Of a stretch of DNA of 64,000 nt, positions 5,706-62,125 are shown piece after piece. This DNA comes from Clostridium ljungdahlii DSM 13528 (GTDB lineage: Bacteria > Bacillota > Clostridia > Clostridiales > Clostridiaceae). The notes beneath the pieces were generated by a model, which was not told the origin of the DNA, made no database searches, and saw nothing but the letters and a program-made list of their open reading frames with translations. The DNA lies in the NCBI RefSeq assembly GCF_000143685.1, contig NC_014328.1:1488001-1552000 (forward strand), written 5' to 3'. Numbering within the stretch: the stretch's first letter is position 1; every line of letters begins with the position of its first letter. The translations under genes were made by a program, and so were the position numbers.

Positions 5706-5807
5706 CTATATAATGTTATCATAACTGGGTCAGAAATTGAAGTGTATGCTGAAGATGTATGTGATGAGAAGTTTAAAGTTAGGGCAATTTCAAATGAAAT
5801 TGAATAA
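5706..5807 (+). pseudogene. Short coding-like remnant of unknown origin
   Basis: A frame ending at 5807 reads YNVIITGSEIEVYAEDV and onward for about 33 residues with protein-like composition, but no plausible start or ribosome site exists because its upstream part is antisense to gntR. It contains a 19-base string (5755-5773) identical to one inside uvsE (62524-62542), read in the same frame. It may be the tail of a lost gene; I do not recognise it. Confidence 0.25.
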
Positions 5808-5820
5808 GAATCCTGTTAAT

Positions 5821-5856
5821 AAACATCAGGTGGAGTTTAAAACTCCGCCTGATGTT
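5821..5856. terminator. 36-nt palindrome after the DUF6143-like gene pair
   Basis: Two 18-nt arms (5821-5838, 5839-5856) pair with one G-T wobble and lie three bases past the stop of the leftward DUF6143-like gene, so a transcript-end hairpin is likely although no long U-run follows. The core CATCAGGTGGAGT is shared exactly with the hairpin at 28733-28764. Confidence 0.5.
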
Positions 5857-5858
5857 TA

Positions 5859-6428
5859 CTAACATATTATTTTTTCTTCCCACCATGTATAATCTACAGT
5901 TGCTGCAGCAGACTGATTAGGAGTTTCAGGGTTTGATAAGAAAATTAGAAATGATCCTCCAGGAGGAAATATAAACTTTCCCACTTCCTCATCACCAACT
6001 GTAACGTCTGGAAGAGCTCTTCTAACGAAAGCTTTTTTACCTCCAAGGGGCTCATTAATTACATTAATTGCCTCAAATAATCCTATTTTGGGTTTAGGCG
6101 GTGGACAAAGAGCTGTATTGCCAGGAATTACTGTTGTAACTCTTATTGCATTTCCTGATGGCTGACTATTAAACCATATTTGGGCTCTTATTGCTGATTT
6201 TCCTGTATTTGAAACCTGCCAAGAATAAACATGTAAGTTAACACCTGAATTATTAGGATTGAATAAACCTGCCCATGCACTTTTACCATTCCCAAATTCT
6301 AGTTCATCTGTAGCCCCAACAAAATATTTTCCTTGAAGTGATAGATACAAAGCATATGGCATACTGGCTACTTGAGTTATTGGATTTGCTAAAAGAACTG
6401 ATTTTTTGTTGTTATTGCAGCTTCCCAT
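5859..6428 (-). CDS. DUF6143-like protein, copy 1
   Basis: The 189-residue protein has no signal peptide or membrane segment. The region after PYALYLSLQGKYFVG and the block VGKFIFPPGGSFLIFLSN match what I recall of the Firmicute family DUF6143, whose function is unknown. The body looks beta-rich (alternating hydrophobic strands, many Asn, Pro and Gly), and it ends TWWEEKIIC. AGGAGG sits 11 nt before the ATG. It is the second gene of a leftward pair, 22 nt after its paralogue, and is followed by a strong palindrome. A broken third copy lies at 62.13-62.32 kb. No role is assigned. Confidence 0.7.
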   Translation of the reverse strand: MGSCNNNKKSVLLANPITQVASMPYALYLSLQGKYFVGATDELEFGNGKSAWAGLFNPNNSGVNLHVYSWQVSNTGKSAIRAQIWFNSQPSGNAIRVTTVIPGNTALCPPPKPKIGLFEAINVINEPLGGKKAFVRRALPDVTVGDEEVGKFIFPPGGSFLIFLSNPETPNQSAAATVDYTWWEEKIIC

Positions 6429-26963: not shown

Positions 26964-27635
26964 ATGTATAAAATTTTAATTGTTGAAGACGATATGGCAA
27001 TTGCAAAGTCAATGAAAAATTATCTCAGTGGATGGAATTATGAAACTGAATTTATAACTGATTTCAAAGACATTACTGCAGAATTCATTAAGTTTGAGCC
27101 ACATCTTGTACTTTTGGATATATCCCTACCATTCTTCAATGGATATCATTGGTGCAGTGAAATTCGCAGGATATCAAGGGTACCTATTATTTTTATCTCT
27201 TCTATGTCCGATAATATGAATATCATTATGGCCGTAAATATGGGTGGTGATGATTTTATTCCCAAACCTTTTGATTTAAATATTCTTGTGGCAAAGGTGC
27301 AGGCATTGTTAAGAAGAACATATTCTTTTGGCGGAAAGATGGATATAATTGAGCATAATGGTGTAGTGCTAAATTTAAGCAGTGCTGCTATCGAATATGA
27401 AAATAAAAAAATTGAACTTACAAAAAATGAATTTAAGATACTTCAAATTTTGCTTGAGAATGTTGAAAAAGTAGTTCCAAGAGATGTTATTATGACAAGG
27501 CTTTGGGAAAGTGACAGCTATATAGATGATAATACTTTAACTGTTAATATAACCCGTCTTAGAAAAAAACTTTCAGATGCTGGTATTTGTGACTTTATTA
27601 AGACAAAAAAAGGAATTGGATATATGGTGGAATAA
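26964..27635 (+). CDS. OmpR/BceR-like response regulator
   Basis: The 223-residue protein has a receiver domain with acidic pair ED near residues 8-9, phospho-acceptor Asp in LVLLDISLPFFNGY and Lys in FIPKPF. A C-terminal OmpR-type winged helix (PRDVIMTRLWESDSYIDDNTLTVNITRLRKKL) follows. It is one codon ahead of its kinase. The sequence closely resembles the second regulator at 53970, and both belong to the BceR class that controls peptide-antibiotic ABC transporters. Its likely target is the BceAB-type pair at 32.9-35.6 kb. Confidence 0.92.
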   Translation: MYKILIVEDDMAIAKSMKNYLSGWNYETEFITDFKDITAEFIKFEPHLVLLDISLPFFNGYHWCSEIRRISRVPIIFISSMSDNMNIIMAVNMGGDDFIPKPFDLNILVAKVQALLRRTYSFGGKMDIIEHNGVVLNLSSAAIEYENKKIELTKNEFKILQILLENVEKVVPRDVIMTRLWESDSYIDDNTLTVNITRLRKKLSDAGICDFIKTKKGIGYMVE

Positions 27636-27636
27636 T

Positions 27637-28650
27637 ATGAAAGAAAAATCTTTTTTACAGCTTTTATTATGTTATGTTAAAGGTCATAAAAAAGCAATAA
27701 TAATGTACGGCATTTTTATTGGAATCTTTGCTGTAGTATTTTCATTATATTCACTGCAGCTTGAGCCAGTTTTGTATGCCTTCTTTTTATCATCAATTGT
27801 AGCTTTCCTTTTTATTATTTACGATTTTATTAAGTGCTATAAAAAGCATAATGAACTTTGTATTATTGAGAAAAAGATAAATATAGGGTTAGATAAGTTG
27901 CCGGCAGCTAATAATTTAATTGAAGCTGACTATCAGAATGTTTTGCAGACACTTTATAGACAAAGTACGGAACTAATTTCAAAAACAGATATTAAGCAGT
28001 CGGAAATGATAGATTATTATACCCTATGGGCACATCAAATTAAAACACCTATTGCAGCAATGAGATTAATACTGCAAAGCGAATATAGTGAACAAAACAA
28101 GGAATTACTAGGGCAGGCCTTTAAAATTGAGCAGTATGTTGAAATGGTGCTGGGATACTTAAAGATTGATAGTGCCTCATCAGATCTGGTGCTTAAAAAC
28201 TATAGTTTACTTCAGATTATAAAACAAGTTATAAGAAAGTATGCACATGTATTTGTTAAGAAAAATATAGCCCTTGATTTAAAAGAAATGGATTGTACTG
28301 TGCTGACAGATGAAAAGTGGCTGGTATTTGTAATTGAACAAATACTATGGAATGCATTAAAATATACAAGCAGCGGTAAAATATCAATATATATGGAGGA
28401 AGCTTCTAGAAAGGTGCTTGTAATTGAAGATACAGGAGTAGGCATTGCAGAGGAAGATTTGCCAAGGGTATTTGAAAAAGGTTTTACTGGATATAATGGA
28501 CGTGCTGATAAAAAGGCAACGGGAATAGGGCTTTATCTTTGTAAAAAGATATTAGATAAACTTTCACACACAATAACCATTACCTCGAAGGTTGGTGTTG
28601 GAACAACGGTAAAGATAAATCTTTCTTCTGTGAAAACTATAATTGAATAA
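27637..28650 (+). CDS. BceS-like intramembrane-sensing histidine kinase
   Basis: The 337-residue protein has two membrane helices (about 20-65) with almost no extracellular loop, the BceS design in which the ABC permease is the sensor. The H box is WAHQIKTPIAAM; the ATP site has WNALKYTSSG, DTGVGIAEEDLP and TGIGLYLCKKI. ATG 27637 starts one base after the regulator stop. Normally such kinases directly precede bceAB; here the structured repeat begins two bases after the stop and the transporter is 4.2 kb away. Confidence 0.92.
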   Translation: MKEKSFLQLLLCYVKGHKKAIIMYGIFIGIFAVVFSLYSLQLEPVLYAFFLSSIVAFLFIIYDFIKCYKKHNELCIIEKKINIGLDKLPAANNLIEADYQNVLQTLYRQSTELISKTDIKQSEMIDYYTLWAHQIKTPIAAMRLILQSEYSEQNKELLGQAFKIEQYVEMVLGYLKIDSASSDLVLKNYSLLQIIKQVIRKYAHVFVKKNIALDLKEMDCTVLTDEKWLVFVIEQILWNALKYTSSGKISIYMEEASRKVLVIEDTGVGIAEEDLPRVFEKGFTGYNGRADKKATGIGLYLCKKILDKLSHTITITSKVGVGTTVKINLSSVKTIIE

Positions 28651-28652
28651 TC

Positions 28653-28784
28653 TATCCGATGACTACCTGCTCTAATGCTCCTTCTCCAAGTGGGAGCAAA
28701 GAGCAGCTACGTCCCTGGATAACGCGGTCTAAGCATCAGGTGGAGTCAAAACTCCATCTGATGCCAAGAACCCTGTTTATGTAA
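28653..28784. ncRNA. Structured repeat, unit A (candidate RNA or mobile hairpin element)
   Basis: The sequence matches, in reverse orientation, positions 38484-38600. Visible pairings: TATCC 28653-28657 with GGATA 28717-28721; GAC 28661-28663 with GTC 28711-28713; CTGCTCT 28667-28673 with AGAGCAG 28700-28706; tip stem GCTCC/GGAGC. A second 14-bp hairpin is at 28733-28764 with loop CAAA. The other copy has CCGCTCT/AGAGCGG, a compensatory change that keeps pairing, and a shortened second hairpin. No coding potential. Strand of transcription unknown. Confidence 0.6.
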
Positions 28785-28808: not shown

Positions 28809-30188
28809 ATGGACAATATAAATGAACTTAGAAACGGAAAAATTAATAATTTGTTGTGGAAATTCTCATGGCCAGCAGTAATCGCCATGCTGATAAATTC
28901 TCTGTATAATATTATTGACCGAATATTTGTAGGACGAGGAGTTGGTTCAATTGCAATTGCAGCTACAACTGTAGCTTTTCCGATTATGCTTATTCTTATG
29001 GCAGTATCTGTACTAATTGGTGTTGGTGCTACCTCACTTATATCTATTCGTTTGGGGGAAAAGAAGCCAGAGGAAGCTGAAAAGATTATGGGGAATGCTA
29101 TATTTTTGTTGATCTTACTGCCTCTGTGTATTAGCATTATTTATTTTCTTTTTAGTAATTCTATTTTGACTTTTTTTGGAGCTAGTGCCGAGGTTTTGCC
29201 TTATGCCAAAGAATTTACACATATTATAATGTTAGCATCATGGGTGGGTTCTCTGAGTATGGGAATGGTTAATTTTATTAGAGCTGAAGGTAATCCTAGA
29301 ATGTCCATGTATACACAAGTAATTGGAACAGCAATTAATATAGTCCTTAATTATATTTTTGTTATGAGGCTAGGCATTGGAATTAAAGGATCTGCACTGG
29401 CAACAGTTTGTGGCCAAACATTCTCAGCCATTTGGGTCTTAAGTTATTTTCAATCGAAAGCTAGTTTCCTCAAAATACGAATAAAAAATCTCAAATTGCA
29501 GAAAAACTTGGTCATTAGTATTATGTGTATTGGTTTTGCACCTTTTTCAATGCAATTGGCTAACAGTCTTCAAAACGTTATTTTAAATAAATCATTAATG
29601 ACTTATGGTGGAGACATAGCACTATCAGCTATGGGCATTGTTGGTAGTATAGCTACTTTAATGTTTATGCCCATACTTGGTGTTAGTCAGGGAGCTCAAC
29701 CTATTATCGGTTTTAATTATGGTGCCCAGCAATTTGATAGAGTAAAAGAAACTTTGAAGAAAGCCATAATTGTAGGTATAGTAATTGCCACATTCAGTAC
29801 TGCAGTGGTACACTTATGGCCAACTCAAATTGCTGGTATGTTTTCTAACAATAATGTAAAATTGAATAAACTAACTGCCCATGCAATGTCAATGTTTTTC
29901 CTTATGTTTCCTGTAGCGGGTTTTCAAATTGTTGCTTCTCAATATTTTCAAGCAGTTGGAAAGCCAATTCAATCTACAATCCTTGGACTATCAAGACAAC
30001 TGCTGGTATTGATTCCTCTATTACTAGTATTGCCGCGCTTTTGGGGGACTGAAGGTGTATGGATGACTCCGCCTATTGCAGATATTTTATCTGCCCTTAT
30101 AACTGGAATTTTTATATTCTTAGAAATGAAACATATAAATGAAAATTGTATGCCTCAAGATACCGATTTTAAAAAAGCAAATTCTTAA
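28809..30188 (+). CDS. MATE family multidrug efflux transporter
   Basis: The 459-residue, twelve-helix protein in two six-helix halves has the MATE start FSWPAVIAMLINSLYNIIDRIFVGRGVG and the matching second-half SQGAQPIIGFNYGAQQFDRVK. It extrudes cationic drugs using Na+ or H+. A GGAAGGTG site precedes the ATG. It follows the structured repeat and precedes a cupin gene by 40 nt, so the two may share a transcript. Confidence 0.92.
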   Translation: MDNINELRNGKINNLLWKFSWPAVIAMLINSLYNIIDRIFVGRGVGSIAIAATTVAFPIMLILMAVSVLIGVGATSLISIRLGEKKPEEAEKIMGNAIFLLILLPLCISIIYFLFSNSILTFFGASAEVLPYAKEFTHIIMLASWVGSLSMGMVNFIRAEGNPRMSMYTQVIGTAINIVLNYIFVMRLGIGIKGSALATVCGQTFSAIWVLSYFQSKASFLKIRIKNLKLQKNLVISIMCIGFAPFSMQLANSLQNVILNKSLMTYGGDIALSAMGIVGSIATLMFMPILGVSQGAQPIIGFNYGAQQFDRVKETLKKAIIVGIVIATFSTAVVHLWPTQIAGMFSNNNVKLNKLTAHAMSMFFLMFPVAGFQIVASQYFQAVGKPIQSTILGLSRQLLVLIPLLLVLPRFWGTEGVWMTPPIADILSALITGIFIFLEMKHINENCMPQDTDFKKANS

Positions 30189-38367: not shown

Positions 38368-38656
38368 AGACATTTAAGGGATTTTCAAAGAAATAACCAG
38401 TCAGTATGCTAGCCTATTTTTTATCATACTGCGTCGGTAGAACCCTTAGATAGGATTCACTATCTGCGGAACCTACCTCCTTGTCTGATAAACAAAGTTC
38501 TTGGCATCTGATGCTTAGAAATTGTTATCCAGGGACATAGCCGCTCTTTACTCACACTTGGGAAAGTGTGAGTATTAGAGCGGGTTAGTCATCGGATAAA
38601 AAATATACGTCGCATCTTTGACTTGTTATTTTCTTTCAAATCCCTAAGTCATTTCT
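38368..38656. mobile_element. Non-coding TIR element containing structured repeat unit B
   Basis: The ends form imperfect terminal inverted repeats of about 30 bp: AAGGGATTTTCAAAGAAATA at the left and, reversed, TTAGGGATTTGAAAGAAAAT at the right, both continuing into AAC-AGTCA. Inside are four hairpins: CAGTATG/CATACTG (38402-38431); a GGTAG/CTACC stem with AGATAG/CTATCT (38436-38476); GCATCTGATGC (38504-38514); and the branched unit TTATCC..GGATAA (38525-38599) with CCGCTCT/AGAGCGG. There is no coding capacity. It fills most of the gap between the MFS gene and dapL; the remaining 38156-38367 is AT-rich with no gene. Confidence 0.6.
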
Positions 38657-61880: not shown

Positions 61881-62089
61881 TAAGGATGGCTATGTGAACA
61901 ACTAATATAGTCATCCTTAATCCAATTTATTGTCCGTAAGTCAGCTACTGTAACACTCCCACGCACTCTGTGAAAGCGACTATCACCAAATCAAAGATTT
62001 GGGATATCTGCTTTTCTATCAAAGTGGGAGATATAAGAACTCTTGAGCTTAAGCAATTTAGAGTTCTTATGCTGTGCATAACAGTAGCT
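61881..62089. ncRNA. Candidate structured RNA with nested stems
   Basis: No protein-like frame is seen here. Outer stem AGCTACTGT 61943-61951 with ACAGTAGCT 62081-62089. Next, CTCCCAC 61956-61962 with GTGGGAG 62024-62030. Inside that, GAAAGC 61972-61977 with GCTTTTC, and TATC-CCAAATC 61981-61992 with GATTTGG-GATA 61996-62006. A side hairpin TAAGAACTCT 62034-62043 with AGAGTTCTTA 62060-62069. A flanking hairpin TAAGGATG/CATCCTTA is at 61881-61919. The order is properly nested. Strand unknown; regulatory RNA, or the guide-RNA end of a lost IS605-type element, are possibilities. Confidence 0.5.
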
Positions 62090-62125
62090 ATGCCACTAGA
62101 TAATTCATCTATATTATTATATTTA

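Follow-up and report, generated by a model that had tools for sequence, protein, structure and literature searches.

Two structured repeats in the window, the 64,000-nucleotide stretch of the Clostridium ljungdahlii DSM 13528 genome (G000) analysed here, are copies of one two-hairpin unit that recurs throughout this genome and in related clostridia. The unit is read as a high-copy, non-autonomous clostridial DNA element that would be moved in trans as a folded single strand and would use an internal GGATAA as a guide to its target (probability roughly 0.55 for this statement as a whole). Its status as mobile DNA that inserts site-specifically is close to certain, because departures from pairing are nearly strand-symmetric and many copies have empty alleles in relatives. 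The HUH-like single-strand mechanism is a tentative part of the proposal.

Copy 1 gave a covariance-model match of 141.7 bits at 28651-28780 (+); its neighbours are a histidine kinase ORF (27577-28650) on the left and a MatE transporter ORF (28809-30188) on the right. The earlier note had placed two such units in the window in opposite orientation, and both are real. The paired segments that it listed (TATCC/GGATA, GAC/GTC and CTGCTCT/AGAGCAG) are all present in the lowest-energy fold, and the CCGCTCT/AGAGCGG seen in copy 2 differs by a real change on both sides. The computed fold consists of two hairpins in a row rather than the branched structure claimed. The start assigned to the unit, 28653, lies two bases past the kinase stop codon, as the note said, and falls inside the target pentamer. 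In copy 2, the middle of hairpin 2 is missing. The features of the window are collected in the table.

Table. Copies of the element and associated features in the window
Feature	Position	Strand	Basis
Element copy 1, CCGATG...CCCTGTTTAT	28656..28780	+	Limits inferred from empty alleles
Target pentamer TCTAT, left junction of copy 1	28651..28655	+	Sequence, empty-allele comparison
Hairpin 1 of copy 1; TATCC (28653-28657) closes with GGATA (28717-28721)	28653..28721	+	Folds, alignment pairs
Conserved GGATAA of copy 1, proposed guide for the pentamer and the element's first CC	28717..28722	+	Guide role inferred
Hairpin 2 of copy 1, GCATCAG...CTGATGC	28733..28764	+	Folds, alignment
Right-end TTTAT of copy 1, belonging to the element	28776..28780	+	Empty alleles, end counts
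Element copy 2, including target pentamer TTTAT (38596-38600)	38488..38600	-	Covariance-model match, 114.6 bits
Unit A, separate dispersed repeat enclosing copy 2	38375..38647		Repeated matches in G006, G008
Probable divergent relative from a sister subfamily; carries the ~50-nt module plus another hairpin insert	61930..62108	+	By eye, compared with L280, L288, L290, L295

The consensus unit, CCGATG...CTCTGTTTAT, lies directly 3' of TTTRT and is commonly 128 nt long. This was the most frequent insert length (59 of the 214 copies with both ends located) within a range of 107 to 278 nt, in a count that is blind to inserts much longer than 500 nt. Longer inserts cluster near 178-183 and 229-233 nt and carry one or two modules of ~50 nt in the hairpin 1 tip. 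Of the copies at one shared site, that of G008 (L413) contains the module, whereas those of G000 and G006 (L023, L412) lack it, and thus the module comes or goes in place. Among 80 G000 copies, the left pentamer is TTTAT in 68 and TTTGT in four, and the right end is TTTAT in 68, including all four with TTTGT on the left. TTTAT is found on the left in 79 and on the right in 79 of 91 copies from other genomes, and some copies have TTGAT or TTAAT as their end. In Clostridium simiarum (L175, L201 and L215), element copies stand head to tail 128-129 nt apart, which is expected if one copy inserts after the right TTTAT of another.

Gene-bearing versions were found neither among the 214 copies with both ends located, where inserts over about 500 nt are undetectable, nor in 1.2 Mb of G174, nor among 254 distinct left ends. 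The core was located within 300 nt of 237 of these left ends, and the other 17 appear to be truncated or to come from sister subfamilies; five of the 17 were read by eye, and no transposase gene was seen in them. The probable divergent relative in the window (CTACTGTAACACTCCC, core AGATAATTC) is missed by the covariance model. A palindrome resembling hairpin 2 at window positions 5801-5871, with an end like CCTGTTAAT, is perhaps an element remnant. Unit A measures ~165 bp without the element and has ends that look like inverted repeats by eye; five composite copies of unit A with the element are present in G008 (identity 94-96%).

The search for further clostridial copies proposed in the earlier note yielded many, in the same genome and in relatives. 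A covariance model built from 34 copies gave 148 matches in G000 among the best 150 of 2574 candidates scored. Of these, 115 scored 50 bits or more, a lower bound for the copy number because 150 of the 2574 candidates were scored. Matches below 50 bits, many of which are opposite-strand echoes of the palindromic hairpin 2, and duplicate loci were left out of the counts. The copies are divided between the plus (56) and minus (59) strands, and per-copy counts below rest on 80 distinct copies of the at least 115. A 21-mer core allowing up to three mismatches matched G000 67 times and its reversed control pattern 0 times, and a BLAST search of the same genome, in which 40 of 144 candidates were scored, produced at least 58 matches. 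Within the genus, 11 of 13 genomes gave matches, as did at least 88 of 206 family genomes, covering 24 of 46 genera; no more than 16 candidates were scored for each genome. The exact 20-mer core was found in GTDB species genomes, in at least 110 stretches; among the matches listed, most are from Clostridium, and others are from Thermincola, Desulfosporosinus, Peptococcaceae and Anaerocolumna assemblies. A distant BLAST search of plasmids and phages returned no match to copy 1, a further plasmid search gave short chance-like matches in three plasmid records, and the exact core was absent from the viral contigs searched.

The site of copy 1 is empty in the close relatives G006 and G008, where the flanks join as AATAATTCGT to GCAAAA and AATAATTTGT to GCAAAA and the pentamer reads TTTGT in G008 and TTCGT in G006. 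The matching places in G011 and G002 also contain no element. Joined flanks of 30 further G000 copies were searched in G006 and G008, with sites carrying another flank copy dropped, and a match spanning the joint was found in one or the other genome for 25 sites; L010, L002:1511, L011:105, L023 and L030 had none. Clean empty alleles were resolved at the base level for 19 of the 30 sites, 17 of which show TTTRT in at least one relative. Variant pentamers are seen at the empty alleles of L020 (TTTCC) and L036 (CTTAT); L035, another of the 19, lies in the multi-copy unit A. The L004 site in G008 retains an element remnant. The empty alleles carry a single pentamer, the right TTTAT is the element's own, and insertion does not duplicate the target.

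These alleles bear on whether the element arrives or departs. Old insertions could have been lost differentially through precise slippage deletion between TTTRT and TTTAT across the hairpins, with no recent movement. At least 7 of the 30 sites are filled in a relative. Such loss would suit the failure to find a Y1 enzyme in G000 and the site patterns of L020, L024 and L016 (filled in G008 and empty in G006) and L009 (the opposite), which require precise loss, parallel gain or lineage sorting as well. It would also suit the divergence of the G000 copies, whose nearest-neighbour identity has a median of 94% and a best value of 97% (n=80), copy 1 being at most 91% identical to any other collected copy; because near-identical copies are absent, recent amplification in G000 is not proven. 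However, G006 and G008 both lack copy 1, with no element at the corresponding places of G011 and G002 either, and both leave at least 12 of the 30 sites empty or spanned; this pattern suggests gain in this lineage. G173 and G174 yielded several equal-score matches, and of the eight copies found within a 1.2-Mb portion of G174, five agree with one copy at 131 or 133 of 135 positions, so that spread in G174 looks recent from these sequences. Differential loss as the whole explanation is accordingly judged distinctly unlikely.

At sites filled in two species, L010 and L409 agree at 127 of 128 positions, and L020 and L406 agree at 120 of 128 positions in the element and at 203 of 205 in the flanks. 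Wholesale replacement of elements at shared sites was considered and dropped, given that L010 and L409 hardly differ and rare letters are shared. Rare letters common to same-site copies suggest descent in place.

Both copies fold more stably than dinucleotide shuffles, as RNA on the element strand (z of -8.6 for copy 1 and -7.2 for copy 2) and as DNA (-6.9 and -8.9), and none of 200 shuffles of copy 1 was equally stable in either form. In alignment A1, 16 of 43 pairs are changed on both sides, compared with a mean of 3.4 in shuffles, none of 500 reaching the observed number; sliding the partners by one to three columns left two to four doubly changed pairs. The structured repeat with compensatory changes described in the earlier note is thus borne out.

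The strand on which the structure is maintained was assessed from departures from pairing. An RNA made from one strand is expected to show far more G.U than A.C at paired positions, and acceptor stems of 20 distinct tRNAs from G174, taken as a control, gave 10:1. At pairs with a Watson-Crick consensus in the element, the G.U to A.C ratio was 34:23 in A1, which was not fitted to the covariance model, and 82:66 (p 0.22) in A3 and 112:103 (p 0.59) in A2, both of which were fitted and have pair counts that lean to the model. The near-equal numbers favour an element that folds as DNA. The consensus includes two plus-strand G.U pairs, and with both counted the ratios become 87:26 (A1), 183:79 (A3) and 194:103 (A2); more pairs lean to G.U than to A.C (15 against 11 and 22 against 12). 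Given the two consensus G.U pairs and this excess, a constraint on the plus strand, either as RNA or as single-stranded DNA, may still act, and a mover acting on single-stranded DNA would also impose one.

Selection need not account for all matched arms. Transversion-type double changes make up 88 of 197 and 143 of 245 double changes, and L020 and L406 differ by several compensated changes although their flanks barely differ. Both observations fit hairpin arms that are matched partly by template switching, and some double changes may therefore come from template switching in hairpins and not from selection. Compensatory changes in a repeat need not imply a functional RNA.

Most G000 copies are intergenic. 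ORFs flank 73 of the 80 copies on both sides, and many of these copies stand only a few bases from where an ORF ends. One copy (L012:1500-1633) lies inside an ORF, where 43 codons are added in frame to a 412-residue aminotransferase-domain protein; this insertion is missing from G006 and G008. The 80 copies follow no clear orientation rule relative to neighbouring ORFs (19 same, 33 opposite, 11 convergent, 10 divergent, one inside and six with one side unknown). Terminator-like hairpins are enriched upstream, at 14 of 80 sites compared with 20 of 600 control TTTRT motifs, the control including coding DNA.

A structured regulatory RNA, the lead of the earlier note, would account for the stable fold, the covariation, the proximity of many copies to ORF ends and the plus-strand G.U pairs of the consensus, with the G.U excess that appears once these are counted. 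It is hard to reconcile with a G.U to A.C ratio near 1 at Watson-Crick consensus pairs, the even division of copies between the strands, the empty alleles and the variety of gene contexts, none of which is common to the 80 copies. Rfam gave no match at the gathering score in the window, in agreement with the note's remark that no named RNA was known, and sub-threshold matches near copy 1 were the only ones seen. A regulatory RNA is thus improbable. The note is right about the structured repeat and its compensatory changes; selection as RNA is less supported, given the near strand symmetry and the empty alleles. Overall, its interpretation is partly supported.

The preferred reading, an element moved as a folded single strand, would operate as follows. 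The hairpins would work as DNA and be recognised on single-stranded DNA by an enzyme acting in trans, which would make its cuts 3' of the left TTTRT and 3' of the right TTTAT. Target choice would be aided by base pairing of the internal GGATAA with TTRT plus the first CC of the element, and joining would restore the donor and place the element after a new TTTRT. GGATAA can indeed pair with TTAT followed by that CC, and its T can pair with either base, A or G, at the fourth position of the target. Joint changes of target and guide were not seen, and copies with TTTAC or TCTAT keep GGATAA.

Insertion 3' of a T-rich pentamer with no duplication, hairpins near both ends and possible guide pairing are shared with IS200/IS605 elements as described in the available parts of two sources (PMC4227781, PMC6006769). 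Insertion of IS200/IS605 favours the lagging-strand template, according to the accessible text of the second (PMC6006769). The clostridial element differs in that neither a matching Y1 gene nor a gene-bearing copy was found and the 115 G000 copies show no replication-strand bias: 54 are on one replication strand with the terminus at 2.3 Mb (p 0.58), near which GC skew flips, and 57 with the terminus at 2.1 or 2.5 Mb. A search for the Y1 transposase family found none in G000, G004 or G010, the last two of which also have element matches. The IS200s of the genus were rejected as movers, the ends compared in G011 and in G006/G008 being different. Group A IStrons insert after TTGAT, ATTAT or TTTAT, as far as the available text goes (PMC4227781); the target resembles that of the clostridial element, which at ~128 nt has neither a group I intron nor a transposase gene. 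Classical MITEs with terminal inverted repeats are likewise small, gene-less and dispersed, but the ends of the clostridial element are not mutual inverted repeats and no target copy is made.

The element could instead be the cognate repeat of a RAYT, a REP-associated Y1 enzyme. REP/BIME repeats of RAYTs are also mostly intergenic hairpin repeats, and RAYT genes are more frequent in genomes with element matches (53 of 88) than in those without (50 of 118; odds ratio 2.1, p 0.016, uncorrected for phylogeny). A RAYT gene adjoins the element in G005, G173 and G017, that is, at 3 of 52 RAYT genes scanned. The clostridial element is, however, larger than REP/BIME units and has defined ends, and RAYT is absent (E 1e-10) from 35 of the 88 match-bearing genomes, including G000, G004 and G011. 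G000 contains a mere fragment (G000:C1:519809-519962) of a gene that is intact in G006, and the repeats that flank the G006 RAYT are of another kind, GGTGCCTGTCACC, so that this RAYT of the genus has repeats of its own. RAYT was therefore set aside as the mover, and a cognate relationship is given a very small probability.

Another possible origin is the omega RNA scaffold of a TnpB nuclease, in which TTTRT would be the adjacent motif and the right flank the guide. TTTRT stands where such a motif would, G000 encodes one TnpB, and in G011 an element lies close to one TnpB (L500). Against this, an element lies near 1 of 10 TnpB loci scanned, pair departures are nearly strand-symmetric, and no TnpB match was obtained in three genomes with element matches, G005 (10), G010 (1) and G012 (1). 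TnpB was rejected as the mover, and this origin is the least probable of those considered. The single TnpB-like gene of G000 (G000:C1:48233-48448, L504; 495 aa) has no element in the 3.2 kb of local sequence examined.

A tyrosine or serine recombinase could move the unit as a tiny site-specific cassette with TTTRT and TTTAT as crossover sites. The clean exchange at a five-base motif and the lack of replication-strand bias would fit such an enzyme. A five-base site and one-sided hairpins are unusual for these recombinases, however, and this route is considered unlikely. TTTAT reportedly stands at each end of the bcr repeats, as Okstad is said to have described in 2004. Judged by description, the bcr1 repeats appear to be the nearest known kind. 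The accessible portions of three sources present bcr1-bcr3 as dispersed, high-copy, non-coding, structured, MITE-like and TTTAT-associated, with a recombination-like mechanism of the cassette type suggested as possible (PMC6542083, PMC3446304, PMC2267715). The clostridial element is likewise high-copy, structured and TTTAT-bounded. It is found in clostridia, whereas bcr repeats are stated, in the available part of one source, to be absent outside the Bacillus cereus group (PMC6542083); a Bacillus arachidis plasmid scanned with R1 gave no match. Stem-loop families of C. perfringens and C. tetani appear in the accessible part of another source and are known here by that listing alone (PMC2267715).

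The Y1, RAYT, IS200 and TnpB candidates examined yielded no mover for the folded single strand. It may be a Y1 enzyme lost from the lineage or supplied by a visitor, or a recombinase of another kind. A wider reading, in which a gene-less hairpin DNA family extends over Clostridia and includes bcr1, with an unrecognised non-Y1 enzyme as the mover, GGATAA as the address and arms partly matched by template switching, is regarded as doubtful.

A literature search, with most subscription papers outside its scope, returned no description of the clostridial family, which is apparently undescribed. In gas-fermenting clostridia and their relatives, the element ranks with the more numerous of the dispersed elements. 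Its turnover among close relatives of a genome with no detectable Y1 enzyme makes the mover of TTTAT-bounded repeats testable in tractable strains.
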